Below are positions 4,743 through 43,804 of a stretch of DNA of 64,000 nucleotides, piece by piece. Position numbers and translations under genes: made by a program. This stretch comes from Branchiostoma floridae. Its lineage: Eukaryota > Chordata > Leptocardii > Amphioxiformes > Branchiostomatidae. Numbering within the stretch: position 1 is the first letter of the stretch; every line of letters begins with the position of its first letter. The notes under the pieces were generated by a model. The model made no database searches. It was not told the DNA's origin and saw nothing but the letters and a program-made list of their open reading frames with translations. The stretch covers positions 10,045,087-10,109,086 of the forward strand of contig NC_049984.1 in NCBI RefSeq assembly GCF_000003815.2. Reading direction: 5' to 3'.

Positions 4743-6438
4743 TGTACACGACTATCGAGGGTTTCATGATTCCAGTCCCTAAACCGGAGACATAGATAGA
4801 AAGGGAACTTCGCCTGGGTGAAAGTGCGTGTCACAACAGCCAGATTTCCAATAACTCGTGATCTTTGTCGACGAAGATCACTGCTTCTGCATTGCTTAGA
4901 GCGTGGTCACATACGTCATGCGAAGTTGCAAAGTTCACCTGTCTTGTTGGTACACAAAGTACTGTTTCGGATCCATGTCGTTGGACGGTTCTGTCACGGC
5001 TAACTTGAAAATCCTATAGCTATGTCATCAAAATCGTGCGACGATCGCACGACCTATGTGACCGCGCCCTAATCATCAGAACAATATACATAACCCAACC
5101 ATACTTTAAGCAGGATTTTAAATAGGATTAGTAATAAATGCAGCCCAATATACAATTGTGTGCAGCGAAGTGTGGTGAATAATTTTGGACCATGTCCCGG
5201 TCTGCTTTAATCTGTAACAAGTGGGTTTCGACGTTGCCTTATCCGAACGGTAGTAGGGGCACGGCATATTAAAACCATTACAACAATACACTGGTGTATT
5301 GAATCACCTGAATCTAGAGTCAACCGTCTATGAGCAGTATGTGAGGATGCCGATTTCCGCGTTGTAAAATACAACATCCCTTCTTTGAAACCACTTCAGT
5401 CGGATACCAGATGTTACCTCTGCGTAAAACAGAATACCGAGCAGTCTCGCCTCAGGGAAGCCTTTATACCAATGGATGTCAGCAAAGAGTGCAGGGACTC
5501 AGGCAGGAAACGCTATTTCCTGTGTACAGTAGTAAGTATGTGACCGCGGAGTTATGCGCACCGCGACACGTCCGCATGTCGGTCTGGGCTGGTGGAACGT
5601 TGGCGCAAATGCTGAGAACTCGCTGGCCATTACTTGTAACAGGGAGGCAACCACAAAACAGTGTACACTAATCTATAGATAGAATGTTAAGTAACAAAAG
5701 GGAAAACATTGCATGACCTCGTTTGTCCATTGTACATATTTCTAGTAGCATTGAAGGGGGAGCTTTGCATCAAATTCCCACACCGTTAAAAGTAAAACTC
5801 GCACAAGTCACGAGTAGAAGAATATCCTATGCTACACGGGAGTATATAAGTGTATCAAATCGATACAATTAAGTCAACAAAAAGCAAACTAAATAAAGAC
5901 TTTTAGAAAAGCACGAAGCCTACCAGGAAGAATAAAGGAGCCAGACACAGATTTCCATCAAAGGTTTTCAATAAACGTGATTACATAACAAGATCAGCGA
6001 TGCGCCGATAGACAGAGGGAAACGACACCGTCAGATACCATCCCCAGGGTTATCCGTCAATCTCAACATTGGCAGGAGTCCAGGCGAGGCAGAACCATGT
6101 GGGACACAGTACAGGACATCCACCTGTCACGCCTACCTCGGAACAGGTGGGTTTGGCAGACAAGGAAACTTTGCTTTCATCTGCATTTTTTCGAAAGTCA
6201 TGGTGCGAAGGGATTTTTAAAAGGTACACAACAAGGTTATTGTACATGTACGAGGGATGCTGATGGGCATAGATGGACCAGAGGTACCGATACTTGGTGT
6301 GCAGTCATAACAATGAAGTAGCCTCTACCAGGCTCCGCGGATCTAATAGTAGAAATTAGACAAATAGAGTCAATAGTACGCTAGGGGAGTCAGCCGGAGG
6401 AGTTACTTGTTGCTCCACAGGTTTGGCGCTTGAAGAAT

Positions 6439-6538
6439 NNNNNNNNNNNNNNNNNNNNNNNNNNNNNNNNNNNNNNNNNNNNNNNNNNNNNNNNNNNNNN
6501 NNNNNNNNNNNNNNNNNNNNNNNNNNNNNNNNNNNNNN
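6439..6538. other. Assembly gap (100 N)
   Basis: One hundred consecutive N, a standard placeholder for a gap of unknown size. Anything read across it is unreliable. Confidence 1.
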
Positions 6539-7279
6539 CTGTCAGAAGTAAAAATCATGGAACAGGAAATTGGACAATCCCAATCCCCCTGGACCCGACT
6601 TCTACATATTCCCCACCGTACACAAAAGTGTCGGACTTTGCTGTATTGGTGTGTATGCATGCACTTGTCTGCTTTGAAATTCTCTAGTGTGTACATGCCA
6701 AGCCCAGGTGTTCCTGATACCTGTACCTATTCAGGTCACGTAGTCTCCGTATCACCACGTTCGCCTACACGTTGTCTACGTGCATTCCCAAACGCGAGAC
6801 GCCCGCTGTGTAAATCGATTTGGATGGCTCTTGTGTGTGGAGGGCCACGGTATTCAAGGTCGGGGTTTCTCAAACGGCACTCTACTAAATTACCACACCC
6901 TTAATACATAGCACACTTCGGTACCTGTATATAAGCGGATATGCAAATATTGTTAAGCGTCTCAAACACAACCTGGGGAGAATGGGAAGAAATGCACTGT
7001 CACGACGTGATACAGCACTTCTTCGATCTAGGACAGGACCAGATTACGTGCGCCACCTAGCGGGCAAAAGTCTGCCAACACGTAGATGTGAACAACTGAC
7101 AAGTTACCATCAAACTCTGTCTTGGTGGACTTCCCTGCCAATACTTATATAAACAGTGTCCTAGTACTAGTGGGATTTTCAGTATTTGTCAAAATCTCCC
7201 TTAGATTAAGAAACACTACATTAAACTAACTTGAGCCTATATTGCACACTGGAGATGGAAGTCTCAGGGCTATCTAAAT

Positions 7280-8553: not shown

Positions 8554-9557
8554 GTCTCTTTCTGGGCATATGTTGCGATTATACCTTCCGCGGTTCTCAA
8601 GGCCACGGTGACGTCATAGCCCTGGGCAGGTGAACACCCGTTATCACCGCCTCAGGTGCACAGAGGGCTTCAGAGGCCGGATTTTCCGCACCAGGTCGAT
8701 GCGGACGGGCGACGGACATGTCTTGGTGCTAAAGTCCGGCGGCACTGGCTTGGTATAAAAAAAATAGGTGTAAAAAGCCCTGGCGCAATGCATTCCAATG
8801 GGACCCAGGGCTTTTTAAGCGCCCTTAAGAGCGGCGACGCGATGTGCGCCCGCCATGGGTCCCCAGCCATGCCCCTGGCCAAGGCGCTGGGGATGGGCAC
8901 CATAGTCTGGGGGAAAGACGTCTCTTTCTGGGCATATGTTGCGATTATACCTTCCGCGGTTCTCAAGGCCACGATGACGTCATAGCCCTGGGCAGGTGAA
9001 CACCCGTTATCACCGCCTCAGGTGCACAGAGGGCTTCAGAGGCCGGATCTTCCGCACCAGGTCGATGCGGACGGGCGACGGACATGTCTTGGTGCTAAAG
9101 TCCGGCGGCACTGGCTTGGTATAAAAAAAATAGGTGTAAAAAGCCCTGGCGCAATGCATTCCAATGGGACCCAGGGCTTTTTAAGCGCCCTTAAGAGCGG
9201 CGACGCGATGTGCGCCCGCCATGGGTCCCCAGCCATGCCCCTGGCCAAGGCGCTGGGGATGGGCACCATAGTCTGGGGGAAAGACGTCTCTTTCTGGGCA
9301 TATGTTGCGATTATACCTTCCGCGGTTCTCAAGGCCACGATGACGTCATAGCCCTGGGCAGGTGAACACCCGTTATCACCGCCTCAGGTGCACAGAGGGC
9401 TTCAGAGGCCGGATCTTCCGCACCAGATCAGGGACGGGCGACGGACATGTCTTGGTGCTAAAGTCCGGCGGCACTGGCTTGGTATAAAAAAAATAGGTGT
9501 AAAAAGCCCTGGCGCAATGCATTCCAATGGGACCCAGGGCTTTTTAAGCGCCCTTAA
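8554..9557. repeat. 366-bp GC-rich tandem array, 2.7 copies
   Basis: Unit starts are at about 8555, 8921 and 9287. Units are nearly identical (one G/A change near 8608; a small deletion near 9428 in the third). Each complete unit has a CRE palindrome TGACGTCA (8609, 8975, 9341), a TATA-like GGTATAAAAAAAATAGG, and a perfect 12-bp stem AAAAAGCCCTGG / CCAGGGCTTTTT around a 21-base loop (8772-8816, 9138-9182, 9501-9545). The unit length is divisible by three, so the same open frames recur on both strands. It matches no snRNA, 5S or SRP RNA that I know. Confidence 0.9.
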
Positions 9558-10808: not shown

Positions 10809-13219
10809 CTACTCCCTGGTGAAGAGCTGTTTGATCTGGTCATCGTTCAGGTTGCCTATCCAGGTCTCCCCGGCCTGTACAGACAAGTCAGACAGGTCCT
10901 TCTTCTTCTCCAGCATTGCATCAATCTTCTCTTCAAAGGTGTTCTCTGTTGGAATGACAAACAATACAGGTGACAACATGATACAACCAGATCTCTAGCA
11001 ACCAGTTTTCTCCTTGTTTTCTCCACCCTTCTCAGTTTTCTGTTGTTTTTCTTTGTGTATCACTTGGTGTCATGCCTGTCCATTCTCTGAAATTGTCCTC
11101 CGATCTTTTCCTACAACAAAATACATTTCACTTAAGTCTCCTATTATTGTCGTCTAAAACCTGGACCACTACTGTGAAAGTTGAATTGAAAATGTGAGCA
11201 GAGAGAACTGGCTTGAGACTGGAAGAGAGAAAACTAGCCTCTATAGCTTCAAATCAGGTTTCTGACACTGCCATTTATGATGCAAGTCAGCAGAAAATGA
11301 AGCTATTAGAATACAGTTTATAAACAACAACCCTGGGGTGTAAACTCATCATAGAACAAAAATCATGGATAAAGTAGGATCAAACATAAGGAGAAAACTG
11401 AGAACAGGAAATGACTTTCGTAAGATTCCCCATAAAAATTCCATTTCAGCGAGACTATTTGGATCAAAATTAGGCAAACAAAACCGTTGAAGGATACGAA
11501 TTGGCTTCTTTCTTATGAACAAATGATCCTGACCTTGTATTGGAAAATTGAACAAATAACAGTATCCATGTTAAGGACATTGTCGGATCAGAAAGGTATT
11601 TCCCTGGAGTTCAACACCAAAGCCATGTTTGCAGAAATAACTTCACTCTGAGGAACTTTCACAAAATCTTATTACATCTCTTATTGAGTATCTATCCATC
11701 AAACTTGATGAAAAACTGACCTGAGATGAAGCGATAGACAAACACGGTCTTGGTCTGTCCGATACGAAACGCGCGGTCGGTTGCTTGGTTCTCCTTGGCA
11801 GGGTTGAACCACAGGTCATAGTGGATCACATGATTGGCAGCTGTCAGGTTCAACCTGTAGAATAATTTGCAGTGAAAAGTAGTCAGTTACAATGTACTTT
11901 CACTTTCAAATGCACTTTTCAATCATTTGTCCCTATCTCAACATAAACAATGTACATACAGAGTGGAAGAATCTTCACTAAGCTAAATCACCATATTTTT
12001 CTTTGATATATTACTGCTCTTTCCTGATCAAAAACAATGTATCTTGCACATTGGGAATGGTATACAGAAATATAATGTACAGAATAGAACTTAAAGAATA
12101 CTTTACATCAGTATTCCTTGTATATCACTATATATATTTATGCTCAACAGCAAGCCAAGAAGTGCCACCATCACTGTGGTAGAGGTATGAGTCAGACAAA
12201 TGCCCAAATTCCCAGTCATTGTAAGGCTGAGTCTTCTAGGACGTCTTAGAGTTTTGGCAAAACACAAAATTTCCAGTACTTGTAAGGCTGGGTCTTCTAA
12301 GAAGTTTTAGACTATATCTGTCCTTTAATACAGAGCTCTTACCCAACCCCTCCTGCCTGCAGGGACACTATCATGATCTGTCTGTGTGGCTGGGTCTGGA
12401 AGGCAGTGGTGGCTTCATCCCTCTTCTGCTGGGACAAGCTGCCCTGGAATATTCAAACACAACTGTGTGTGTTGGAGCAGTTTTGAAACTGTACAACAAT
12501 GTACATCTGGTGGTGTCATGTTTTTCTATGACACAAATGTAGCAAGATTATACATCCATTTCAGGTATGGGCTGTTTGATGTAAAAATAAAACGTTTCAC
12601 ATGGAAAAATTCAAATGACTCCAACTGCAACATGATAACAGGACATATGGTGTCAATAACTGATTGAAAGGCTGAGACAGTAATAGTGCAGCGTTCATGT
12701 GTATGATAGGACGAGAACAAAATCAGCAAGGGAAAATTCTAAGATGGAACACCATACCACTAAACTGTTATGACCACTATTTTATTTTAATCCTCATCCT
12801 GCTGAGAAATTTTTTGTATATTTAACCCCCCTAAGCTAGTTAATCAGATCAGTAAAACTTGGCCTATTCTGTGCTGCTGCTGCAGATTTACTTCCCCAAT
12901 CTATGCAGTTTGCTGAGGTATGCAGCATTTAAGTGTGAAATGCTACAAACCCATAAAGATACTGGACCCACATACAGGCATGATATATGTGCATCCCACA
13001 TACATACGGGCTTAGCAGGACAAGAGTTACAGAACAGTTAAAATATAAGTGTCTAGAAAACAACAAGATATTCCCCACCTCGAAGATGAGTGGCTTGACC
13101 TTGAAGTGCGCCTCCACCATCTGAGCCATGAGTTTGATCATCTGTACGTACTGGGAGAAGATGAGCACCTTCTCTCCCTGCTGCAGGATGGGCTGGAGCA
13201 GGTCTATCAGTACCTTCAT
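10809..13219 (-). other. SNF2 helicase C-lobe exons
   Basis: Four exons encode [15 protein letters not shown] (motif IV region), [20 protein letters not shown] (motif V) and [12 protein letters not shown] (motif VI, about residues 1211-1222). The gene ends in a short tail of the form FEEKIDAML...LTREL-type, here finishing FTRE before TAG. The motif VI arginines are intact, so the enzyme looks catalytically competent. Confidence 0.9.
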
Positions 13220-16200
13220 CTGGAGTAAACAGTTTGGTTTGGTTTGGTTTAATTCAGATCTCCATTAGTGACTGATACAGCTGTGTCACTCACCCAACAT
13301 GTATGCTAGCAGAAAGGGTTGCAGTCCTTAGGACAGGACGTTAAGCCCTGGTCCACTGTTTATTAATGTGCTTGTTGAAAAGAGATAGGGAAATTTCCCC
13401 GGTACAATGAACCTGTAAATACTGTACATAGCGTCTGTCCTCTCTGTCATGACCAGTAGAGGAAAAGCTCTTCAGTGAGCTAAAACTGTATCAAGTTCAC
13501 TTTCCTTTCCTTTTTTTTTCCTTTTCACAGTCTACAGTGGAATCCTAACATGTTTGATTCTTACCTTGCCAGATGCCTGGATGTCCCTGTTGCTGTTCTT
13601 GGTGAAGTTGGCAGGGTGGTTGCAGATCTGCTTGAGGAATGTCATGGTCTGGAAGATCACTCCTGTCCTCTCCTTCTTCTCCTTGGCCTCTGCCAGCTTC
13701 TTGACCATGTTCTGAACAACACTCTGAAGTACAGCAAAGGACGGAAATGGAAAATCATCTTTGAAAAGGATGAGACTAATTTTAAGTTCACAATTTGATT
13801 TCCCTATTCTAAGACATTGGGCCAGAACATTGGGCCAGGACGACTTTTAAAAAGATGACTTACTTAATGCAGCACAAAATCCCTGAAAATTGGTCAGTGA
13901 AAGTTTTGGGTTTGGCAAAGACATTTACAGTTGATTTTTGTGTTTTGTACATCTTTACATCATTTTGAATAATAATGTAGAAACCACAACCCCCTAGACT
14001 ACCAAATTTCAAGCAAGTCCTGTTGGTTGTGACCATATATTATTTAACAACTAAATAGAAACAAGTAAAAAGAATATGAGGACTACCTCAAACAAGTGAA
14101 AAGAATCTTAGGACTACCTCATACAAAGCAGCTTGTTCAGCAGTTAGAGAGTTGTACTTAGGCGTGGTGATCTTGTCGGGTAAGTCTTTGATGATAGACT
14201 TGTCTGTCTTCAACCTACGCAAGAGGAATGGCCTGGTTATGGCACGGAGGGCCTCCACACGATCCGCGTCACGATGCAGCTGGGAACAAGGGAGAGGACT
14301 GATGATTTCTTAAGAAACCTAAAAAAGGTTTTAACTGCAAACATTGGTAGGTGCTGGGGAAAATGGATTTGGTAGACAATGCGAAAACAATGTGTAGGGT
14401 TCATGCAAATGATACCTAAGAAATAGATCAATCTTTTGACACAGGTGTTAATGTTAATGTTATTATTATGGTTATTGCTATTATTATTGGGTGGGCCGAC
14501 TACTCTCTCTTCACAGCCAGGGGCTGAATTGTGAGGAGCTTATAATAGGCAAGGTGAGGGTGTCAAGTTCTCAAAAAACAAAAGAGTGCCAGTTTTATTT
14601 TGAAAGAATTGCAGGATTCTTCCTTGGACACAACTAGATAGTCATATGGGATTGTCAAGCACCTACTAAGATGTATCGAACTGATCTGAAGTCAAGGTCC
14701 TCATCGACTCCTGATGGACGAACATCATCACTAAGATGTTATTCTTCTAGACATGACTATGGGGTTAGAAAAGATGAGTAGATAAACCAACTAGGTTTGT
14801 ACCTACCTCTATAGGCTTGGCATATGCATGTGTGAAGTCCTTGTTGGTGCCCAGGTACTTGGGGAAGGTGAAGTCGAACACAGACCACAGCTCGGACAGG
14901 TTGTTCTCAACTGGTGTTCCTGACAGCGCAACATGCATCTTAGCCTTCATACGCTTCATCGCCTAGTGAGCAGAGAAAGGGAAAGATAAGGACTAAAAGC
15001 TTAATAAACCAGTCTACAAGTTGTTTCAAAAAATTTATAAGTCGTTTCATATTATATATCACATCTGTGTCTTCTAAATCATTGGAACCAAATCCTGACC
15101 CTCACCTTTGCTGTCTGTGACTTGCAGTTCTTGATGTACTGAGCTTCATCAATCAAAACCATACCTACAGGAAGATAAAGCACATTAGAAGTTTGACGTG
15201 TCCCTTTCTACCATTCATATCTACTCTGTCCTTGGTGCTGAATACCTTCACACTGCCTTACTTCTGCAATTTCTATCATTCATACCTGCTCTGTCCTTGG
15301 TGCTGAATACGGTTATTACCTTCACACTGCCTCATTGTTTAGTACAATTCACAATCACCCTGTCCTTGGTGCTGAATACTAGTACCTTCACATCGCCTTA
15401 TTGTTTTAAATGCTGTTCAGCACTTGCCCTGTCCTTGGTACTGAATATCTTAACACTGCTGTATTGTGTTGTACATGTATATTGTTAACACTGTCCTTGG
15501 TGCTGAATACATTTTATGCTACCTAGCTCCTAGAAATAAATACCAATCAACCTGCTATGTCTTTTATGCAACCATTCACCATGAACAAGGCTGATGGATG
15601 TCTCAACTCTTCCAGTGTTGGTCAGATAAAGTTTGGTTTCATAATGTAGTTACCACCACAGACCAACTTTCGTGCTAACGTTCATGTATAATTTGTATAA
15701 TTGACTATTTGTACACAAGACTACAAAACATACTGTACTGTATCTTTGCCAGAGAATCGACGTCAATCCTAACAATGTGGTAGGTGGTGATGATGATGTC
15801 AGTGTGCGGAACGTCCCACGACACACGCGCACGCTTCTTCTTCGGTCCCTCCCCTGCAGACGGTCGCTTCCCGGCTCCGTTAGGCGTGTCTGTTTGGTTC
15901 TCATACTCCTGTAGAGCCAGGTCGTCGGAGTTCCCATGGCACTGGGTACTGGGCAGCGTTCTACCTGCACCATAGTACCTGAGTTTATGGACACAAGTAT
16001 AAGGAGACAAGTCTATCATGTTCTGTGAAGAAAGTCAACCCCAGTGACAAACTGGGACAAGGGGTGATACATATAGTCTAAGACCAATGGTCCCTTATTC
16101 GTGATAAAAAATCATATTGTTAGCAATTAAGATTTTGAACTATGCTGTCTTTTTAAATTGATGTACTTAACTTATAGTTTATTTCTCCCTGGAGGATCAC

Positions 16201-19200
16201 ATGTGAATACCAACGTAATTCAGACATAACTAAATGTCTGCAACAAGGTATGTTAATAAAGATTTCAAAGATTTCAAACTTAGCCATGTTTGGGATTGTG
16301 TTCTCACAGCAAAAGCACCAACTACATTGGCTGTATATAGCAGCGAGACAAATAACTCCAGTTACTCTCACCTCTCAAATAGAAGTACCCCCTGGAATAA
16401 AAGTACCCCCCGGACAAATCTTCAAAATCTAATAAAAGTACCCCCTGGAATAAAAGTACCCCCCGGAAAAATACCAAATTGACATGTAAACTGTGCCCAT
16501 GCTACTTCAGTCCAAGAGAAGATGATAAGCAGGTAGGCTCTTTTTATTTATTTATGCCTCAGTACCATATCAGTTAATTGTATAAATAATGAACAGAATA
16601 ATTCCTATGTTATTGCACATATTTTCTTTATCTGAGTGTCACACCATCAACAAAGATTAAAATAAAAGTAAAAAAATGAATGAAAATAAAAATTGAAGAA
16701 ATAAAAAAAGAAGTTAATTTTATAATCATTGTTACAAAATAACATTTTGAAGAAACATTCCAACTTAGAATACCTTATTGACCACTTTTTTGCTATTTTC
16801 AATGTTGCAGAAACCAACGAGGTCATAGACACTGCCCCCTATCGAGAAATAACAGTACTGCAGAAAATATATAGTTCTCTCGCGCATTACCGCGAGATTC
16901 GGCGTGAGTTGATGAATCCAACATGGCGGATGTTTTCTAGCCGATTGAACGCTGTGCTTTGTTTTGGAAGGATTTTTTCGTTGCTGGAACATTAAAACAA
17001 GTTGACTACGGGTGAAAAATAGTGGAAAAGTATTGGTAACTTTTCAATTTGTTTGGTTGGTGGTTAATTTCTGTGTTTTGATAGAGAATTTACGGAAGTA
17101 AGTGACTGTGTGTGTAGCATGTGACCTCGATGTTTTCGTCTTTGTTCAGCGCAAATTTCAAGATTTTTGGAAGGTTAAAGATGGTCTAAAACGAAAAGGA
17201 TATATTTTTTTACGAGTCTAGTACCGACCGAATCACTTGTGTTCCGGTATTTTTGGACCTGAACCGAAACGTTTTTGCAAGTCCAGAACCGGTCCTGCGT
17301 ACCGGTACGCATCCCTAGTTATGTTTGGGTCATAGCGCTAGCGGCAGGGAAATCCGCGCTGCCTCGTCCGAAAATAGTGAATTTTAAGCAAAAATACCGC
17401 GGAAATATGGGCAGAAAATACCAAACTTTCAATATTTTTGGGGTCCCTGGTTAGTAAAGAAAGCCCCAATTTGAAAAAAAAAATAAACGTACCGTCTAAA
17501 ATAAGGACGTACCGGGTGGATTTTGAGGCGGAAAAAAATAAACGTACCGGTACGTTTATTTGAGAGGTGAGAGTAGAAGCTCTAAGGCAGGTGTCTGAGA
17601 GACATCAAACAGTAAGCAAAGTGAGTACTAACTTGTTGTGAAAATGATATCCTACGTCTATCATAGTGTTCAATTGTTAAGAAGTGAGAAGAAACTGTAG
17701 ATTTGTAGATGGCCTCTTCTCTCTTAATGACTGATGTAACTGATACAGAGTTGTGCATGGATTGGAAAACAATTTGTGTACTAAAATTAAAAGTTAATCT
17801 AGCATTCCTCAGTAGCTATAAGGTAACTGAGACTGACAATGATAATGAAGTAATCTGCACCAATAGTATTAGAGCCATGTGATATAAATAACATAACCTA
17901 ACTTTGACTTATTTTTCAGGGTATTTTGCAATACCAGACAAGTCACCAACCTTGAGACAGTGAGAGAGGGTGCGAATCGCTGGATCTCCCTCTCCCAGTT
18001 ACTCATGACACTAGTGGGGACCACCAGTAGTACAGGATGGGTCAGGTCACCTCTATTCTTCAGGTGGAGCATGGCAGCAATAGACTGGATAGTCTTCCCT
18101 AGACCCATGTCATCTGCCAGGATCACCTGCAAGTCATGTATAAGTAAGAGATGTAAGAGAGATGGAACAAAGCTATACAGCAAAACCTGTACCACCTCTG
18201 CAGAAAGACCATCTGGCTGCTGTGACCACTTTTTGGTGGTCCCTGGGATACTTTTTCCCAGTTTTGGGCAGTGCAGAGTGTAGTCCTTGTGGAAGCATAT
18301 AAAAAAGTAAGCCAATACAGTTTGAAGAAGAGTTCTGTCTACATCACTATTCAACCCTACTAATTATGTTTACACACAAACAAAAAACATGTATGATACT
18401 TCAACAACCATTTTTTACACAACCATTTCTTAAAATTTCGGTGACCAATTGCCTTGACAGACGGTCATGGAAACGTTGGTGTGAATATAGCAATGGTTGT
18501 GTAAAAAGAGTGTCAATGCTGTTTTGAGAGAACCTACCCCAAAGCCATGCTGTACGTTGGACACCAGCCACCTGTAGCCAGAGACCTGGTAGGGCCGGAG
18601 TGTTGCCACCAGATTGTGGGGTACGGGGTGTTCATCCACCTTCTTCACAGATTCCACCATAGAGCTCAAGCTAGCTGAGAGGTGGAACATGCTATCCTCC
18701 AGCAAGGACTCCTATGGGTAGGAAAAACATCGCGAAATGCAGGGTTCAGCTTTGTTCACATAATTTGACAATAAGGGATGGCAAAGCATCGGTGTGGTGT
18801 GGTGTGAGTGCTTGGCTAATACTATTAGGTGCAGGCTTTTAGACTATGACAAGTCTCATGTTGTGCCCTTGAGAAATAGCCTGGGTACCATCCAGGTAGT
18901 AGTTCGCTATTATGTTCACTTCTCCTACCTGTTTGGATAACTGTATATTCAAATCTTTTGGTGGTGACGTCAGTTAATGATCGATTTGCTCATTCAATAA
19001 TAACAGGTCCTCCCGCAAGCAGACTGAGGGCGTTTCGGATGTTGGATCGCCTGTTCGAACAAGCGTTTCAACTCATTCCTCAATTCCGCCATGTATAGGG
19101 ACCAATAATATATTCTTGGAACACAGGGGTCTGCCTGTGTTCTATACTATAAACTTTATAAAAAGTTATTCATCATGACTGTTTAACATTTATATTGACA

Positions 19201-22200
19201 ACCCTAAAGTGTAACACTACCATTATCTACAGTAGCATTACCTTCAGCAGGTCCAGTGGGGAAAGCTGTGGTGGCTCCTGTTTGACCTTGTTGAGAATGG
19301 ACGACATCTCCTCAGGCTTGACAGAGATGTACTTGTCCCTGAACCTGACCAGACCCTCCCCACTCTGTAGCAGCTGCTGGAACTCATGGACAGCAATGTA
19401 TTCATTTCCTGTAATATAACAGGACAGAGAACCGATCTAAGTGTTCTGATAGGGTAAACAATGTTAAAATGTGTTTACAACAATCTGTTATTACATGTTG
19501 AAAAAACTGTCATGAAAAAAAGACACTTGTTAAGAATTTCTACATCTCTGACAAGTGCAAAAACCATCAATGGAACAATGTCATGTTACTGGAACTTCAT
19601 TTACTTTTGCAGCAGTTTTACTTTGCAGCAGAAGAATAAAGAATTCTTTGCTATGTTACAAATTTCCAAGATTTACAATACTGCAAAAAAGTAGTCTTAC
19701 AGCAAATATCAAACCTTTGTAAAAGTTTCATGATTCACAACATCTTTCAAACATTGCTGCATAGGATGGGTCGAATACAGCAATGAATGGTACCTACCAA
19801 TGGCAATTTTCCAGTTGTATGTTAGTAAGTCATCTATGCTGAAGAAGGACTGCTGGTTCCTGGTGGAACCCTCCAGCTCAGCATAAACCACAGCTTTGGG
19901 CTTCAGGATCTTCCTGTTGGAAAATGATAAAAACAAAAATTAAAGAACTCTTGAGTTCTGCTCTTTCTATAATCAATTGAAACTTGATACTATGATAATA
20001 CATGTAACTTGTTTGATTCCTACAGTTAATTCTCCACTACAAGGACAACTACACACAAATGCCATGACAGGTCCAAAAGACAGCACTGAGTTGTTTTGTC
20101 ATAACTGTAGTTCATATGTATCACAACCTGTCTACTCAGTTTTCTTCATATAAAATGGACAAGGCTGCTTCCTACAAATCTTATCAAGTCCTTATTGGGA
20201 CTCTCGTCATTGCCTCAAATTGACACATGGTAGCAATCAGACAAGTGCAGCAAAAAAATGCTAAAAACTATATACTCTAAGGGTAAGTTAAAAAGTTCTC
20301 ATTTATATCTAGTTGCAACTTTTTACCTGAGCTCCTTAGGAAGAATGACTTTGACTCCCAGGTTGTTGAAGACATCGACTGTGTTTAAGATGAAGTCTTC
20401 CAGCTGCACTGCAGTCAAGGCAATGGAGTCTTCCTTCAACAGTCGTCCTACATGGGGGAGGTAGGTGTGTAGGGTGGCCAGGAACTTCATGGCCTGGGCA
20501 GTAAGAAATGACATTCAACTTGTTTGTATCAGCAATATTCAGAGTATCAGATGAGACAAAACGTACGGGGCAATCAGGATAAACTGTTATTTCGTAGCTG
20601 CCACTTGAAATGATATGTCTTTCGAGGTGCATTTGAAGTGGAGAAATGTCAATTGTCATTCAAAGCTTACTCTAACTGCAGTGTGACCACATTCTATGGC
20701 ATTCAAACATTATTAGAAACGTTCTGATCTCATTCGATGCGAGAACTGACAAGGCAAGCCACTTTAAATCCTACCAGAATGTGGCCAAAAGAATATCTGG
20801 AATGCAGTGAGAATGTCTAGAATGCAATACAACTACCCAGGAACTGACAAAGAATAGTTGTTTTGGTGGCATTTGGCTCATTCCTTCTCGTGTGAAGGGG
20901 ATTTGAAGTCCGTTTGGAATTCCCACCCGATTGTGGCATGAATTTTGCAAATTCTATATTCCGTCTGGTTCTGCTTGATTCCTGCTAATTCGGTGTCAGT
21001 GTGAAGGCCCTATAACCCAAAGTCTTACCTGAGCTTTAGCCCAGCTGTTACTCATCAGGAAGCGCCTGATTGGCTTATGTTGAGCCAGTTCATTGTCCCT
21101 CATCTTTACCCACAATTCCATGCTATAGTGATCTGGGGGCGGCAGCTCCTGTGGAAAAAAAATTTGGACAGGAAAAACCCTTAAGAAGAAGTGACACTAT
21201 CATTAATGAAGTGACTTGACTTGGCAATTGCAATAGTTGTTGCGTATCCTACTTTCCTTATAGGCAATACAAACTACAGAAACGAAAAGTATGTATCCAT
21301 CAGAATTATCAAACGTAGTTGGTTTTAGTAACTTTTACAAGGCAAATTGTCTTACATAAAGAACAATTTATAACTACTCAAAACTGAAGACATGAGGTCC
21401 TGATATGACAACTACATACTTCAGTTTTGATCTTCTTTCCCTTAGTCTTCAGAGGACTGATGTGAACTGCCACTTCTAGTTCTGTCTTGATCAGGTCGAA
21501 GACACCGAAGTATTTGTTGATGGCCCGGGGAACACTCTGCTGGGCAATGGACATGATGGTGTACACTTTCCCACTGAAAAATGCCAGAGACTCAGGTGGA
21601 GGGTTGTTCTTGGACTTCTTGTGCATGAAGTGTAGATCCTAGTAGGGGAGACAAGAATTTCAATGTGGTGAAAACGTCACAGTCCTGTAACAGAGATGCT
21701 TGAATATGAACACATCTAGATGAGCATTATCATGAATGTGATTTAGGAAGTGTACTTTTCTTACCTTGACAAACTTAGTGAGGAGAACAGACAGGACATG
21801 GAGGGATGCAGAACATCCACCCAGAGGCATCTCATCCACTTCAACACAGGGGTCATCTAGACAGCACAACAAATAACTTCAACTGATATTCTCTTGTATG
21901 TTCCCAACACTGACCTGTGAGAGCCAATGGTCATCATTTCCATGCACAAAACAATAAACAGCTTTGAAAGTTTGATCATTGTGAGGTTGTGGTACATTTG
22001 TTTAACAGTCACAGCCACAGTAATGAAGTTACCTTCAGGGTAGATCTTATTCAGATTGTCCAGCTGTTCTGCCACCAGCTCGGCCGTGTGAACCGGCCGC
22101 CAAACGATCTTGAAGTCTGCAATCTTATTCTGCTGTCGTCGAGATAAGGGCAGCACATCAGGGATGAGCACCTGCAGAAAAGGCAATAAAAGGTCATTTC

Positions 22201-25200
22201 GCACCCCTAATGCTTTTTATCCTCTGACATGTACCTCAGCTCAGAAGAAAGTCTATCCTGTTGGAAGATTTTAACAAAAATGCTCCTGCAGCTCTATGCA
22301 AGGGGGCCCACATTCTGGTACAAAAAATACAGACCATAGCTTGTTCAGAACACGAGATATTAAAACCAGAAGTTCTGATGTAGCAGTGATAACAAGCCTC
22401 TAGGCAACCCAAAGACCTACCCACAAACCAAATTTGAAGACAATCCATGTAGCCCTTCTCTAGTTATTTGTGTTCAGAGGCAGATGGACATCATATTCAT
22501 TGGAGGTAACAAAAATGCAGATAAAGCAACAGCGTTGCTGTACCTGATTCCTCATGAGCATCATGGCCACTCTGCAGCTGTAGAAGAAGAACCTGTATGA
22601 GGGGCTGCCAAAGTCAGAACTGAGCCACAGGAACATCTGCATGGCTGTCTGCAGGTCCACCTTCAGCCAGGTTTGTTCCTCTTCCTGTCCATCCCTCCAC
22701 AATGGGATCACTTCCTGGAGTCAGGAATATAGAGCAACATCAATTATGGACATTGCAGACATTGTGTAACATAGTGCTCTTTTGTTAGCAGTTTATGTCA
22801 TGTCAGTCTCACAAAAGGTATTGTCCAACAACATCATCCTGACAACAAATGTTTCCCATACATCTGAAACAGATGCTTAGAGGTGATGCCCATCTCCATT
22901 TCTGTAGCCCTTGGGCCCCACATTTGTGCAAGCTATTACAGCAGGGTGCTAGTCCCCTGGTAGTGATGTGTCCCATACTCTTCCTAATAAGTGCTGAGTG
23001 CTAAGCAGAGAAAGCAGCATGTACCATTTTTATAGTCTTTGTTATGACTCGGCTGAGGATCGCACTCACGACCTACCGAATGCAGGGTGAACAATCTACC
23101 TACTCGGCCATTGCTGTGGATGGACAAAAAACTTACCTTCAACAGTTCAAATTTGGCTGTACCTCACTTCTTCTTTCACTTGTTCCATTTCACATTGGTT
23201 TTCTAGAAATGTTGAGGGGATGAAAGGTAGCATCCATCCTCTCCTACATTTCTCCTGATGTATAACATATATAACAGTAATACACTGTTTCACAACTTGG
23301 TAAAGAGTGCAGCACCTACCGCAGTGTATGGCATCTGGTTCTTAAATACACTTGAGATGGTGACCCACTGGGTGCTACCAGACCCTTCCATGTCTACTGC
23401 TGTCTTCTTGTCCCAGACTGGGTTGTGGATATGAAGCTTGGCCGAGTCAAACCTGGTGAAAAATGAAAGATATCTAAGATGAAACACTGAAGCATGGAAT
23501 GACTGTTCACAATATTATTACCCTTACATAAAGCTCTTGAGATGTTACTATGCTTTACACAAGCCCAGGAGATGTTGAAAATGGCCATTTATATAATTAC
23601 TGTAAATGTAGGTTTGTAGGGATTTAATACTGCAGTAGTGAGAAAATTGAGTGTTCGTTGTGGTTTTTAGTTTGCAGTTGAAACATGGCAGCATGGAGGC
23701 ATAAAACAGAACGAGTATTTTCACGATACTGGAACAAGTTAAACTATTTCCGACACAAAAAATATGATTTTCCCAAAAGTTGGGCTTTCCAGAATGACTT
23801 CTACCAACACAGATGAACTTTCAAGCTATTTTCACAATAGTGAAGTTTGCAGTTAAGAGGTTACTTCAAAGACATTCCAACATTTATCGTAGATTAAAGT
23901 TTCTACATCTTTAAAGAAAATGCATCACTGTACTTTGCATCCAGAATCAGGCGGAATCTTGCGGCTGACATAACGTTCTGTACATCATCATGGTCCAGTG
24001 TACTCAGCCAATGGGCCGAGCCTGCCTTCCCAGCATTCATCAGGTCATCCAGCACCTTCGTACCCTGCTTGGCTGCATAGCTGGGAAGTTGTGAGAAAAC
24101 CAGAAATTCAATATATGAATATGTTTTAAAATGCTGTACCTCTACGCGGCTGAGCAACGGCTTGTTATATAACACTGAACAACTTGTCAAACCTGACCTT
24201 TGCATATCTGACTGAAAATGTTGCTTGAAGCTGTTTAGTGAGGATGCACCTACAGAACTTGATGGCAACAAATTCCACTGAGTGATAGTTTAAGGAAGTA
24301 TGAATATCTGAACACATCAATCCTTGGTTAAAAACTATTACTTGAGATTGAAGGCATAATCAATACTGCTTAGAAACTTTTGTTACAGTCTGATTTTATC
24401 ACTCATTTATACATGACACTCTTGTTGGCCTTATTACCTGTAAAACTCCTCCATGACAGACTTGTAGTCCAGCTCCAATGAGAAGGGAGGATTGCTCCTC
24501 AGGCAACTCAGGATGAAGTCAGACATCGGAGGGATTTTTACCAAAGGGCAGGGCAGAATGTGGTTCTCATTGACTTCAATCTCAGCTGATGACTGGAATG
24601 AAAAAAAAGAATTTGTCAAGTCAATGCAACCCTAGGGATGAGTAGCCTGGATCCTAGACTCACTGTTACCAAATCATTCACAGGCCAGCTCCCTGGCTTT
24701 AGGGTCAATATGCTCCCAAGGAAATTCTACAACAGCCTGAGTTAGACCCTGATAAACACTGCATAATAGATACTATTGAGATGAGGTTTCTGTCATCCAG
24801 GCTAAGGGAAGAGTAATGCTACAGATCTAATGGACCCTTCACAGAATATATTATGCCTCTCCAACATAAGATGCTTTAGTCAAAAGATGGAGCAGAGAAT
24901 GTGGTATGGTTGAGGTGTCAAAATAACAAAAGGACCACAAGTCATACTGACAGAGGCATGTTTTGTGATCAACAAACAAAGAATATACACATGTACCACA
25001 AATGAAACTTTGACTTCCAAGAAAGTTGGCTATGATTTTACTGGGACATTGTTACACAAAATGTTTAACATATCAAGTGCAACTAATAATGGACATACCG
25101 GTCTTAGAGGTCGGGAGAGCGGCAGTGGATACCCTGGGTCCGTGTCGGAAGGCTTGATGTTGAAGTAGCCCATAAGATCCACTCCTCGCAGGTTAAACAA

Positions 25201-27318
25201 GGTGAAGGGGTTCTTGTCGATCTCCGAGGTGATGAGGTAGTACACGGCAGCCATGTGCTTACAGGGGTTGGCATCGTCAGGACACGAGCAGCGAGCCCTC
25301 ATGTCATACCAGTGAGCGGGCAGCAGGTCAATATCAGCCTGTTGGACAAGAACTTAACAAATTAGATTACAAATGTCACAACAGCAGAACCTAACCCTCC
25401 AACAAGTGACATACAACTTTGAAATGGTACTGCAACTTTGAAATGGTACACAATAAAGGCCTGCATCTTAGAGCTAAACCCTAAGTTGCCCATACATAAG
25501 AACAAGGCCAACCTTCCTGATCAGAAGATGCACTGGGCCTGGCGCCCAACTCCATTTTTAAGCCCAGTGGGCCACACATACACAATGTAGTTAAAAGCGT
25601 AACAGCAGGGGGCTAGTCTACTGGTAGTATAGTGTGTTCAGCTTCCATACTCTTCCTCTTAGCAGAGAAAGAAGTATGTACCATTTGGTATCACCCTGCA
25701 ACAGCAGCCAGTCTTCCTTGTTGGTCTCCCATCCAAGAACTGACCCGACTGCACATTGCTAAGATCAATGGATCAGGTGTATCTATCAACATGCCACAGC
25801 CATAGCCTAAGGCCAGTGTCTTGATGAATGGTGAAGAAAATTATTCATGAGGTTTTTACTTGGTAAACCTTCATATTCTGGTTCTCCCTTGAGCTCTAAC
25901 TTTTCATCACACTTTCTCTATCTACACCATGAGAAATTTTCCATTGATAGGGAGGAAGCAAACATCACCTCCTCAAGAGTGGAGAGTAGCTCGTCTGGGA
26001 GATCACCATTGATGATCTGGCCATACAGAAGGGGGTTCTCATTGATGACATCATACACACGCTGGAGGTGGGCGTGGTTCAGGAGCTCGAACTGCACCTT
26101 GACGCCGTATGGCCGAGGACTGGTCCCCTGGACCGCCGCAGATACCTGGATTAGAAGCATGGAAATGATAAGGGCTTTGCACAGCAATCTCTGAACTTCC
26201 AAATGGAGATGTTGGGAGATTTTTTGGATTAGGTGCACTGGTGCACCCAGCTGAAAAAATTGGGTGCACCAAAAAATTTTTGGGTGCACCACTTAAATTT
26301 AAGTAGAATGTCAGAAAATCCTTATAATAAAACTTTCTAACACTTTTTAAGATGTCAGGAATATGATATATAAGTATTCTTTGATATATTTACATACAAA
26401 AGCCTATGAAAATATTTGGGTGCACAGAAAATAATTGCGTGCATAGCTCCAATTTTAGGTGCACCTGGGTGCACATGCACCCAGTATTTTGAGCCCTGCT
26501 GTGTCTAGATTGGGCCCAAGACACAATATCATTGAATATGGACAGTTTGAATGCTTGAGAGTTTGCCAGACTTGTGTTAGAACCGTTTGAACAGTAAATA
26601 TTCACTACCTTTGTTTAACAATTACATTCACCTCAATAAATCCATACAAACATGATGTTGACTACTTGTATGATATGTTATGTTCTCTCTTAGACCAAGG
26701 ACATTATTGCCTAAGTCCCATGTCTTTATTTATCTTGTACTATGCCTGACCTTGGCTCCATCAATGCTGACATTCAGCACTTTCCCAGTGTTGGCATAGC
26801 TCTTCCCCCGTCCAAGACGTTTATTTGTATCCAAGTTCCTACATTTACACAAGAAAGAGAACTTTTATAATCAAACAACATGTTTTCTCATAACAACAGT
26901 TCAATGATTTACCTGGAAAAAAGCACACTATGTTTCTGTTACAAAGGGAATCAAACAACATGTTTTGTCATAATTCCTGTTTGTGTTAAATGGGGGATTC
27001 CATGTCTATTTCACACTTACTTGATCAAAGGCATTCCAGACAAGGAAATTATTCAAGGACAAAACAAAACCTTGTGAAATATCTGGTGGTACAAGGTGTC
27101 AATGCAAATTCCAGACATGACAAAACACAGGAACAATTTGAACAATGCATCAAATCTGCATCACAGTACACAGGAAAATCTGAATAGATAGCAAGATAGA
27201 GAAATGCTTATGATATGAGAAGGAAAATGTATCATATACAGCAAGATTGTGCTACTCACCCCAAGGCATCTAGAAAAGCTGCACCCCATGTGGTCTTCCC
27301 ATATGTGTTCCTAACCAT
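10809..27318 (-). CDS. SWIM zinc finger - SNF2 helicase (bacterial YwqA/HepA type), 26 coding exons, 1277 aa
   Basis: Predicted nuclear ATP-dependent DNA translocase of the SNF2 family. Exons, 5' to 3': 27318-27260, 26838-26751, 26145-25969, 25338-25099, 24592-24438, 24080-23934, 23452-23320, 22714-22544, 22171-22033, 21856-21765, 21638-21420, 21148-21029, 20493-20327, 19913-19798, 19408-19242, 18711-18538, 18126-17951, 15978-15734, 15164-15106, 14962-14807, 14279-14118, 13723-13565, 13219-13079, 12443-12343, 11854-11721, 10945-10809. All have GT/AG borders and the phases close to 3834 nt including a TAG stop. Domains: N-terminal SWIM-family region (1-190), a long middle region in the place of the SNF2-associated domain (about 200-740), SNF2 ATPase lobe (about 750-1040) and helicase C lobe (1108-1260). 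The start is the first ATG after a 5' UTR splice. In bacteria the SWIM and SNF2 parts are usually adjacent genes; here they are fused. Substrate unknown. The family call is strong; nuclear location is inferred from an NLS-like insert. Confidence 0.9.
13230..13445. repeat. Probable dispersed repeat in intron
   Basis: This intronic stretch starts with (TGGTT)-type short repeats and continues with repeat-like sequence. Assignment rests on appearance only. Confidence 0.3.
15190..15515. repeat. Degenerate intronic tandem repeat
   Basis: CTGTCCTTGGTGCTGAATAC recurs about five times at 65-80 base spacing, with CCTTCACACTGCC after most copies. It lies in the intron between exons 15978-15734 and 15164-15106 of the helicase gene. 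Confidence 0.8.
16365..17573. mobile_element. 1.2-kb TA-flanked inverted-repeat element in helicase intron
   Basis: Ends are CTCTCACCTCTCAAATA and its reverse complement, each bordered by TA. Subterminal AAAAGTACCCCC repeats occur on the left and ACGTACC repeats on the right. No transposase frame. Inside are split TCTCGCG/CGCGAGA half-sites (16878-16897), AACATGGCGG (16920-16929, YY1-like) and a hAT-like end CCGGTACGCATCCCTA near 17308-17323, so it may be composite. Confidence 0.65.
22870..23120. repeat. SINE-like dispersed repeat with tRNA-like segment
   Basis: Shares GCCCATCTCCATTT, GGGCCCCACA and CATACTCTTCCT phrases with 25510-25770 and partly with 50886-50985. On the minus strand 23115-23041 contains TGGCCGAGTAGG, like a Pol III A box, and a looser B-box-like GTGCGATCC. 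A tRNA-derived SINE is plausible. Confidence 0.5.
24643..24804. mobile_element. Short inverted-repeat element (TAGCCTGGAT ends)
   Basis: Begins TAGCCTGGATCC and ends ATCCAGGCTA, 162 bp, in a helicase intron. The ends match those of the palindrome at 47194-47279. Confidence 0.55.
25099..25338 (-). other. SWIM zinc-finger exon of the SNF2 gene
   Basis: This 80-codon exon encodes C-x-C-x6-C-x-H (Cys125, Cys127, Cys134, His136 of the protein), the SWIM zinc-binding pattern, followed by the MAAVYYL helix usual after the last His. SWIM domains bind nucleic acid or protein. The preceding exons (26145-25969, 26838-26751, 27318-27260) read like the N-terminus of bacterial SWIM proteins: [11 protein letters not shown], then [16 protein letters not shown], then RPYGVKV. 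Confidence 0.85.
25510..25770. repeat. SINE-like dispersed repeat, second copy
   Basis: Related to 22870-23120 and to 50886-50985 (CAGAAGATGCA, GGGCCACACATA). Lies in the intron between exons 26145-25969 and 25338-25099. Confidence 0.5.
26225..26505. mobile_element. hAT-like fragment rich in GGGTGCACC
   Basis: The right end is GTATTTTGAGCCCTG, whose reverse complement CAGGGCTC is hAT-like. Multiple GGGTGCACC and inverted copies occur within. No matching left end, so it is probably truncated. Confidence 0.45.
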
Positions 27319-41500: not shown

Positions 41501-43804
41501 ATACTATAGTAGCTATATATAACATGTATAACATATGTTTGGCCAATAGTTGGCTATACAGTCAAACCTGCCCGAGCGACCACCTCTTCTCAGCGACCAC
41601 CTGGCCATTTCGACCGCTTTTTCTCGGTCCCGATTTTTTTTCCCATTGACGTAAGCATTAAGCAACCTTTTCTCAACGACCACCTGGCCAACGCGACCGC
41701 GACCGGCCCAAATTGGGACCCATAACGACCGCATCATTTTTAAAATTGAGGTTTTCATCGATTTTTGATGATAACTAGCGCGATTTTGTGCCGAAATCGG
41801 CCAGTTTGCGTCGGATTTTGACTGTCATTACGATGTTATGTTTAGAATACAGATGGCGGCGGTCAATGGGTGGGTCAATGGGGCAGTCTACTGTAATACT
41901 GGGAGGAAATTTCGTTGTAAGAAAATCCGAATTTAGTTGTTACAGAAGTTTTTTTTTTAAAAATCTATATCATCATAAGGTGAACGAATGACGTATAACG
42001 TGAAACGTATATAGCCTCATACTTTTTCAAGAAAGATCTGTGTAGCTCATACCTTTTAAGAAAGAGCTTTTGTTCAACTGTACTGTACATTCACCAGTGG
42101 GTAAGTACGCTATCGGGCATCGAATTCTAAAGGTGCACCGTAGTTATTTCAGATAAGGCGATCATGAACACAAGAACGCATAAAGTCTTGTATGGTAACA
42201 GACAGTATCAAAATATTGAGCTTTAGAACACTGTATCGAATAAAAGCTCGATAAAAGCTTGGGGTTAAATTTATAGTTTACAGTGTGCGTGTTGTATTTG
42301 ACATTAAAGACCTCGCTTCTTTGCGTGCGTGCAGTGTGCTTGCTATTGCCATTAAACACAACGGAAACCATTTATACTTTGCATCGGGCATGTTTTGAGT
42401 TGATACTCTTCTCAGCGACCACCTGTCCAAATCGACCGTTTTTTCCCGGTCCCCCGGGTGGTCGACTTGGGCAGGTTTGACTGTATATCAAACACACTTG
42501 TCAATGGGAATATGCCCTCTTTATACGGAAATTCTTTATGTTGATGGAACGGTGCCCATCATTTCCTTTTATACGTGTAAACATATATGGCCTCCGTCGG
42601 TCAAGTGTAACAATACTCCGATAAGTAACACATGATAGCTAAGTTGAAAAGTTTGTTTGTGACAAGTCATAAAGTGATGACAACGACAAGATTCAAAGTA
42701 TTGTTTTTGTTTTGCAACACATTACTTTCGAAGGTGTATTATTCTTACATTTTCTTGTGCTATTCACTGCGTGTCTTAAGAATTTGACACAGAAACTTAT
42801 TTTCATTTTCACAGGGTTACCAAGCTCTGCTTACCCGGACTTCCAGGGATGGCTACAGAAGGTGAAAGGACCGATGCTCGATTCTACCTTCATCGACAAC
42901 TTTCTTCCTACCATTCCTGGGCTAATCGAGAAGCTCGGTAAGAAGAATTAGATTTGAAGATTTAACAAAGTTATCAAGAAGGTAGCATGGTACTGGTAGT
43001 ACTCAGTCCTCAAGCTTTGAATGTACCTTAGCAGCGACTGAAATGCACCTAGCATCGGAACGTATTTCGAGTGTGGGCTAGTCTAGGGTTCGCAAACAAC
43101 ACAACACGTAATTTTGTCTTAAAGCAAATGAAGTTCCAAGCTCATAGTGGAATGCGTTTAAAAGCAATGATGTTTAGCCTTTTGTGGCTGATGATGGCTT
43201 TAATTGCCAAGATGTATATGATGTCTTTTTTGTAGAATCTGGAATCACAGTGTGCGACCTCGGCTGTGCCAGCGGCTACCTCCTCTTCCTCATGGCCCGA
43301 AGTTTCCCCAACAGCACGTACTACGGGATAGACCTATCAGCAGAGGCCGTCAGTATGGCCAAGAAGGAAGCTGCCGCCAGGGGGATCACCAACGTCATCT
43401 GCGATGTTGGGGACGCCACCAAACTACCCGACGACTGGTCCGAGAAATTCGATTACGTCATTACCCTGTCCACCATACACGACGTCAACGCGCCGGAGCG
43501 GTGTCTGAGGGAGATCCGGCGGGTGCTGAAGCCAGGGGGACAGTTCTCCATGTGGGAGCGAGACGCACACACTCAGCACCACGACAACATCGGCAACCCT
43601 ACTGCCAGTATGATCTACGTCATCAGCATGATGTCGTGTGTGCCGATGTCGCTCCATGACAACGGCGCGGGTCTAGGGGCGATGTGGGGACACGAACAGG
43701 CCCTGCCCATGCTGGAGAGGGCCGGCTTCTCTGACGTGAAGAAGTTGGGTATCCCCGGAAACCAGGGTGTAGCGCATTACCTTTGTTCTAAGTCAGGAGA
43801 GTAA
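38524..43804 (+). CDS. SAM-dependent methyltransferase, Rv2258c-like, 4 exons, 379 aa
   Basis: Predicted soluble S-adenosylmethionine-dependent methyltransferase; substrate unknown. Exons: 38524-38753, 41234-41451, 42815-42937, 43236-43804 (TAA); 1140 nt closing in frame. The N-terminal part (about 30-140) has the look of the winged-helix dimerisation domain of Rv2258c-type enzymes: FVTLSLAIGRRTGLFDEL, then TAHEIAAAAGL, then YVREWLGSMV. The C-terminal Rossmann domain carries motif I DLGCASGY (198-205), an acidic YYGIDLS loop and VLKPGGQFSMWERD. Start is the ATG in GCCATGG. Intron 1 (38754-41233) and intron 2 (41452-42814) are filled with repeats. AATAAA signals are at 43893 and 44223. The family is mainly bacterial with scattered animal members, so ancient transfer is possible. 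Confidence 0.9.
39480..40225. repeat. About 130-bp degenerate tandem repeat, roughly six copies
   Basis: The phrase ATGCAAGAATGGACTCTTCC followed by CCCATGTAAAATTGCA and AGTCCAAAAATACTCCC recurs at about 39491, 39611, 39810, 39935, 40066 and 40196 in intron 1 of the Rv2258c-like gene. Confidence 0.75.
40480..40995. repeat. About 170-bp tandem repeat, three copies
   Basis: ACCAAATTTCAGGTCATTTG and AAAATTAAGCATTTTG recur at about 170-base spacing in the same intron. Copies are imperfect. Confidence 0.7.
41559..42483. mobile_element. Tc1/mariner-like non-autonomous element, copy A, 925 bp
   Basis: TA-flanked inverted ends CAGTCAAACCTGCCC, in intron 2 of the Rv2258c-like gene. Repeated GCGACCACCTGGCC phrases near the ends. 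No transposase frame. Copy B (52584-53416) is the same element in the opposite orientation. Confidence 0.85.

Follow-up and report, generated by a model that had tools for sequence, protein, structure and literature searches.

Related SWIM and SNF2 systems

Prokaryotic SNF2 ATPases associated with SWIM zinc fingers have already been published, and the same source describes several occasions on which prokaryotic SWI2/SNF2 families moved to eukaryotes (PMC5512222). The best solved relative of the motor discussed here, by sequence, is SsoRad54, the Sulfolobus SNF2/Rad54 helicase (1z63, 385 bits). Its SNF2 core was solved with double-stranded DNA, and the deposited chain comprises the ATPase core only. 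Here we describe a gene from Branchiostoma floridae, found in a window of 64,000 nucleotides, that joins a SWIM zinc finger, a DUF3670 domain and a complete SNF2 motor in one reading frame. Its kind is already known; what the gene adds is a member in an animal, with introns and an insert.

Structure of the gene

The gene occupies the minus strand of the window from 27318 to 10809. In the genome, which totals 513 Mb, it lies on scaffold C6, about 10.06 Mb in. When its 26 exons are joined by script, they give a protein of 1277 amino acids that starts with an ATG at 27318, ends with a stop at 10809 and contains no internal stop. All 25 introns begin with GT and end with AG; their phases are 0 in 15 cases, 1 in four and 2 in six. 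The coordinates, exon number and length given in the original prediction are exact, and the single uninterrupted frame that it described, with a SWIM finger and an SNF2 motor, is confirmed. The model is predicted from the genomic sequence and assumes a single splice form, first exon included.

Pfam finds SWIM (E = 1e-05), DUF3670 (3.8e-25), SNF2 (1.4e-67) and Helicase_C (6.2e-23) along the protein. Because these E values are joined by colinearity with bacterial proteins of about 1170 amino acids, chance is excluded as an explanation of the domain chain.

Exons 1 to 3 (27260..27318, 26751..26838 and 25969..26145) lead to exon 4 (25099..25338), which contains the SWIM zinc finger at residues 121-142 (25237..25302). 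The four ligand positions of its motif, which spans residues 125-136 (C125-x-C127-x6-C134-x-H136), are identical in all 18 aligned bacterial and archaeal proteins. Exons 5 to 12 follow at 24438..24592, 23934..24080, 23320..23452, 22544..22714, 22033..22171, 21765..21856, 21420..21638 and 21029..21148. The weakest part of the gene model is formed by exons 6-8, 10-12 and 18, with a mean identity of 4-14% to the 18 prokaryotic rows; exon 7 is the least conserved of all, and the value for exon 18 is low because of its insert. No PDB sequence matches the middle of the protein (residues 188-761) at any E value up to 1. Within it, residues 202-519 match the Aliarcobacter protein described below with 92 bits.

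DUF3670 starts at residue 602 in exon 13 (20327..20493), continues through exons 14 (19798..19913) and 15 (19242..19408) and ends in exon 16 (18538..18711), where the SNF2 domain starts. Exon 17 (17951..18126) holds motifs I (DDMGLGKT, residue 793) and Ia. Motif II, DEAQ at residues 934-937 (15139..15150), lies in exon 19 (15106..15164) and motif III in exon 20 (14807..14962). After exon 21 (14118..14279), the SNF2 domain ends in exon 22 (13565..13723). Helicase_C covers exons 23 (13079..13219) and 24 (12343..12443), the latter with motif V; motif VI lies in exon 25 (11721..11854), and exon 26 (10809..10945) ends with the stop. All 18 relatives share K799, D934 and E935; R1215 is shared by 16 of them (one gap, one K) and R1218 by 17 (one gap). 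The residues of motifs I, II and VI are thus intact, as in SNF2 translocases of double-stranded DNA. DEAQ itself was dropped as a diagnostic mark, because eukaryotic Ino80 also reads DEAQ in the alignment.

Between motifs Ia and II, exon 18 (15734..15978) carries an insert of 45 residues (857-901; 15816..15950), any column of which is filled in at most one of the 18 aligned relatives. It includes PKKKRARV (residues 892-899; 15822..15845), which we take, from knowledge of such motifs, to be a possible classical nuclear localisation signal. Like the introns, this insert looks like something made in the animal.

Fused relatives in prokaryotes

The closest counterpart is an Aliarcobacter plasmid gene, annotated as one CDS, which matches animal residues 1-1273 with 684 bits (tblastn). 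The two proteins share 37% identity over 1135 aligned residues, and 51% in the motor. SWIM and motor stand in a single frame at 38 of the prokaryotic loci fetched, and the fused prokaryotic family shares with the animal protein the order SWIM, DUF3670, SNF2, Helicase_C in one chain.

Eighteen of these fused loci come from 168 that were classified: five on plasmids and 13 among 80 genome loci, the best 80 of at least 592 confirmed matches. In that classification, "motor alone" means that no SWIM match was found within the DNA examined around the locus, and one locus, L015, is cut by a contig edge and frame-shifted, so that its fusion state is unreadable. The remaining 20 belong to the same phylum as the Treponema match, whose title is the basis for calling them spirochaete loci here. 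They were selected because their frames are long, and all 20 are fused. In this phylum 32 frames of at least 1139 amino acids were counted, of which these 20 were fetched and one more is the Treponema match itself; the shorter frames of about 850-980 amino acids, possibly of the split type, were left out. At ten of the 18 loci one neighbouring gene each was scanned for a conserved partner, and only an FGE-sulfatase domain recurs (2 of 10).

Trees place the animal motor within this family. The first tree had 62 rows: 59 chosen from the 168 loci, the animal protein, SsoRad54 and Ino80. After removal of three rows flagged as long (Ino80, L096 and L099) and two viral ones (L092 and L094), the animal motor falls inside the fused prokaryotic clade (99/91) and beside Aliarcobacter (98/89). 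In an enlarged tree, which combines 30 of the 62 rows with 20 new ones, it again groups with Aliarcobacter (96/96), inside a spirochaete-type clade of 21 rows (100/99). An AU test rejects a position outside the fused set (p-AU 0.00016). A position outside the spirochaete/Aliarcobacter set receives p 0.0363 when that set has three rows, and 0.0149 when it has 20 rows and was named after the tree was seen. A tree of the SWIM part, with L011 and L071 left out, also unites the fused proteins and the animal one (100/96), yet its AU p is 0.386.

A prokaryotic origin of the animal gene, judged from these sequences, is well supported. It very probably descends from a gene that was already fused. A virus as donor is unsupported: a SWIM match was found at none of the 80 viral loci kept (from at least 568 relatives), and none of 1022 matching phage records covers 80% of the Aliarcobacter query.

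Probable transfer into the animal lineage

We put a probability of roughly 0.7 on the following reading as a whole. An ancestor of the animal would have taken up the fused gene, the likeliest donor being a relative of the spirochaete/Aliarcobacter form. The 25 introns would have come later, as would the basic insert, which may direct the protein to the nucleus, and the protein would do the work of an SNF2 translocase. That the recipient was the animal lineage itself, not an older or intermediate eukaryote, is our inference.

The gene could instead be a relic, received by an early eukaryote as a fused prokaryotic gene and then lost from most lineages. The 25 introns suggest a long residence, and the repeated transfers mentioned above would provide precedents. 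On the other hand, the nearest kin of the animal gene are particular bacterial groups and not the base of the clade, and exon 15 is the only place in the 513-Mb genome that reaches the DUF3670 cut-off. Judged from the prokaryotic relatives and this one genome, this alternative is unlikely. A second DUF3670 match, on C16 (E 0.715), lies under the cut-off and was dropped; it sits in a frame of 596 residues that is presumably a prolyl 4-hydroxylase, judged by eye.

Proposed function

In the most likely scheme, ATP would drive the two SNF2 lobes along double-stranded DNA, the usual mode of SNF2 motors. The SWIM/N-terminal and DUF3670 parts would either bind the substrate or restrain the motor. The outcome would be that DNA-bound proteins are slid or stripped. 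The chances that the animal protein has this translocating or stripping role are about even; if it is a translocase, it probably works in the nucleus.

A different task would be the recycling of nuclear RNA polymerase, in the manner of RapA and YwqA. HepA and YwqA of B. subtilis are described as Swi2/Snf2 translocases that interact with RNA polymerase (PMC7385302), and B. subtilis is among four control genomes that contain DUF3670. Against this, the RapA model NF003426 gives the animal protein only 58.9 bits where its cut-off is 576, and no polymerase-binding region was found in the protein. Polymerase recycling is improbable.

The PADLOC motor models give the animal protein up to 418.2 bits for ZorD and up to 407.4 for DpdE, which indicates the type of motor that prokaryotes employ in DNA conflicts. 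It is a rather speculative thought that a plasmid-borne conflict motor, related to those of phage-defence systems, was taken over whole by the animal and now guards its nucleus against foreign or mobile DNA, with an import signal that arose inside the motor domain.

Separate genes for SWIM and helicase

The original prediction pointed to bacteria in which the SWIM protein and the SNF2 helicase are encoded by separate genes, and such pairs are real, with Streptomyces, Nostoc and Thiodictyon among the examples. It proposed that one pair had entered the animal and fused there, and it named nesting of the animal gene among such pairs as a result that would support transfer. The prokaryotic origin stands, with the motor inside a prokaryotic clade, next to the Aliarcobacter plasmid gene and spirochaete genes. 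The fusion does not: fused genes are already widespread in prokaryotes, and the animal motor sits among them instead.

An AU test also speaks against grouping the animal with the split pairs and the rows next to them, which it rejects at p 3.5e-05. Motors of fused genes score 462-575 bits against the animal protein and those of split pairs 351-453, ranges that do not overlap. The order of the parts is also reversed. At 35 of 36 split-class loci the helicase precedes SWIM, and the 36th resembles an interrupted fused frame; in the fused prokaryotic genes and in the animal gene, SWIM comes first. Fusion within the animal is therefore very improbable.

Native and contaminant alternatives

A native eukaryotic SNF2 remodeller that acquired a SWIM finger by domain shuffling would have the full set of SNF2 motifs, as this protein does, and DEAQ occurs in Ino80. 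Such an origin is nevertheless scarcely credible given the presence of DUF3670 and the end-to-end alignment with bacterial fused proteins. The animal motor is less similar to eukaryotic SNF2 subfamilies (INO80, ISWI, SNF2, CHD, ERCC6 and others) than to prokaryotic motors. SsoRad54 reaches 385-390 bits and the best eukaryotic chain at most 256. In the search in which SsoRad54 scores 385 bits, the best eukaryotic chain has 248, and the archaeal protein stands above every eukaryotic chain among the 60 listed of 87; this nearness to SsoRad54 fits the SSO1653-like SNF2 group. Host SNF2 genes at eight other loci were compared as well, with matches under 35 residues dropped. In all 12 comparisons their identity falls below the median of the bacterial fused proteins over the corresponding stretch. 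A place inside the eukaryotic SNF2 subfamilies, named in the original prediction as a result that would count against transfer, is thus contradicted by the scores; in the 62-row tree these subfamilies are represented by the one Ino80 row, itself flagged as long.

Bacterial contamination or misassembly, which the bacterial type of the protein might suggest, is refuted because introns, all 25 of them GT-AG, interrupt the conserved domains, and the locus lies deep inside scaffold C6 in a window whose other frames encode trypsin, ShK, laminin-G and F5/8C domains.

Comparison with known systems

In the literature, mostly non-subscription papers, no animal SWIM-SNF2 gene was found. To our knowledge, ZSWIM proteins have no helicase domain. 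Animal ZSWIM8 is part of a CUL3 complex. For the phage-defence protein ZorD of the Zorya system (8qy7), the animal protein scores 316.4 bits against NF041790, an NCBIfam model with a cut-off of 1500; RapA/HepA, as noted, falls below its cut-off as well.

The best NCBIfam match is the SCO1167/SCO6262 family helicase (NF058637), with 600.1 bits, far under the cut-off of 1200. This is the family of the split pairs, which have the same family of motor and a related SWIM module but differ from the animal gene in consisting of two genes, with the helicase before SWIM. The closest systems are the fused SWIM-DUF3670-SNF2 genes of Aliarcobacter (WP_151029474.1), Aeromonas (WP_042468249.1), Treponema and other spirochaete loci. 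They have the same order of parts and are colinear with the animal protein from end to end. The animal copy differs by its 25 introns and by the 45 residues of basic insert between motifs Ia and II.

If the preferred reading is true, an animal uses an SNF2 motor that does not derive from eukaryotic chromatin remodellers but reached it from bacteria with SWIM and motor already assembled. One could then ask how a DNA motor of prokaryotic origin acts on chromatin. The fused and split forms offer a clean bacterial test set, with the same parts in one chain or in two genes, and in opposite order.

An intact, intron-rich gene

The gene lies on the minus strand, with its coding sequence running from a start at 27318 to the end of the stop codon at 10809. 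When its 26 exons are joined by script, they yield 1277 residues with zero internal stops, in exact agreement with the exon count, length and coordinates of the original prediction. All 25 introns are of the GT...AG type, and third-position GC is 0.667. Pfam places SWIM at residues 121-142, DUF3670 at 602-731, SNF2 at 771-1092 and Helicase_C at 1107-1220. With all SNF2 motifs undamaged, the stop-free frame does join SWIM to a complete SNF2 motor, as had been claimed. The animal gene is real and intron-rich.

The window (C6:10045087-10109086) belongs to a host genome of 513,431,437 bases in 431 contigs, in which an exon-by-exon search finds a single DUF3670 place above cut-off. Further frames of the window encode trypsin, ShK, laminin-G and F5/8C domains, animal-type content as expected. 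A 208-residue open stretch on the plus strand (43178-43801) carries a class I methyltransferase domain (Methyltransf_31, E 2.7e-30). Past the 3' end of the animal gene lies a 366-base tandem repeat (8554-9557; 2.8 copies, 99% matches). At 45830-46164, two adjoining arrays of 10-base units, CGAAAAGGAA then TCCTTTTCGT, are mutually reverse-complementary and might fold into a large hairpin. At about 6437-6540 the bases are undetermined (X in the translated frame), probably because of an assembly gap.

Fused and split relatives

The top match in a tblastn search of plasmids is a gene of Aliarcobacter cibarius, with residues 1-1273 unbroken (684 bits). The next matches, from Aeromonas, Cupriavidus and Persicobacter, have the same build, and separate helicase and SWIM genes appear lower in the list. 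The fused gene is annotated as a single CDS in Aliarcobacter, Aeromonas and Persicobacter pPP6, and forms a single open frame in Cupriavidus and Persicobacter pPP1. Separate bacterial gene pairs, which had been proposed as the source, also exist, being annotated in Streptomyces, Nostoc and Thiodictyon.

Altogether 168 loci were classified by script, the genome and viral loci being the best 80 of 592 and 80 of 568 matches. Eighteen are fused (5 on plasmids and 13 among the best 80 of 592 genome matches), in 36 the two parts lie in separate frames, and the other 114, including 80 viral loci, have the motor only, without SWIM in the DNA examined around the locus. Against the animal protein, fused motors score 462-575 bits and split motors 351-453, so that the ranges are separate; motor-alone loci among the best 80 of 592 genome matches reach 520 bits.

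The helicase precedes SWIM in 35 of the 36 split loci. The other, L011 from an Alphaproteobacteria MAG, has SWIM first and the helicase second, in neighbouring frames separated by a single stop (2112-2114). It looks like an interrupted fused gene, and the stop may reflect a read error, recoding or decay.

The Succinatimonas genome of fused locus L029 carries three DUF3670 helicase genes on one strand of one contig (G005:C42:2750-14262), two of which match in frame length the L029 gene (1323) and its SNF2 neighbour (1256). In Wolbachia phage WO (MN180251.1:61139-62965), an SNF2/RAD54 helicase matches residues 345-939 of the Aliarcobacter protein, without the SWIM part.

In the phylum of the Treponema match, the spirochaetes, DUF3670 is present in 53 of 392 genomes, above cut-off in 51. 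Twenty long-frame loci were fetched, out of 32 long frames, and all 20 are fused.

Origin of the fusion

In a motor tree of 57 rows, the animal row falls within the fused clade (99/91), grouping with Aliarcobacter (98/89) and then with two spirochaete rows (100/98). The AU test rejects a position of the animal row beyond the fused set (p-AU 0.00016). Prokaryotic descent, as originally proposed, is thus well supported. Descent from a split pair is not supported, since grouping the animal with split pairs and their neighbours is rejected by the AU test (p 3.5e-05). For the SWIM part alone, fused loci and animal group at 100/96, with an alternative placement at p 0.386, which is not rejected.

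After 20 new rows were added, the animal still pairs with Aliarcobacter (96/96), inside a 21-row clade (100/99) that includes 17 of the new rows. The remaining three belong to other parts of the wider fused group, and one of them adjoins Gastranaerophilales motor-alone rows. Placing the animal outside the spirochaete/Aliarcobacter set of that clade gives p 0.0149, and placing it with spirochaetes minus Aliarcobacter p 0.0749; both values are softer than they look, because the sets were chosen after the tree was seen.

Fusion inside the animal lineage is very unlikely, given the fused prokaryotic loci and the animal's placement among them rather than among pairs. The SWIM-SNF2 fusion very probably predates the gene's arrival in the animal (probability about 0.85). 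The original prediction was therefore right about the gene itself and wrong about how its two parts came together.

Apparent animal additions

The introns and a 45-residue insert appear to be animal additions. Exon 18 encodes the insert, which falls between motif Ia and motif II. In any one of its columns, no more than one of the 18 aligned relatives has a residue. Inside the insert sits PKKKRARV. At sites other than the insert, 14 of the 18 relatives contain K[KR]x[KR] and 9 contain four basic residues in a row; because such simple basic patterns are common in relatives, a role for PKKKRARV as an import signal is a prediction only. The motif is unusual for its place in an animal-specific insert, not for its basic pattern, which is similar to the classical SV40-type import signal.
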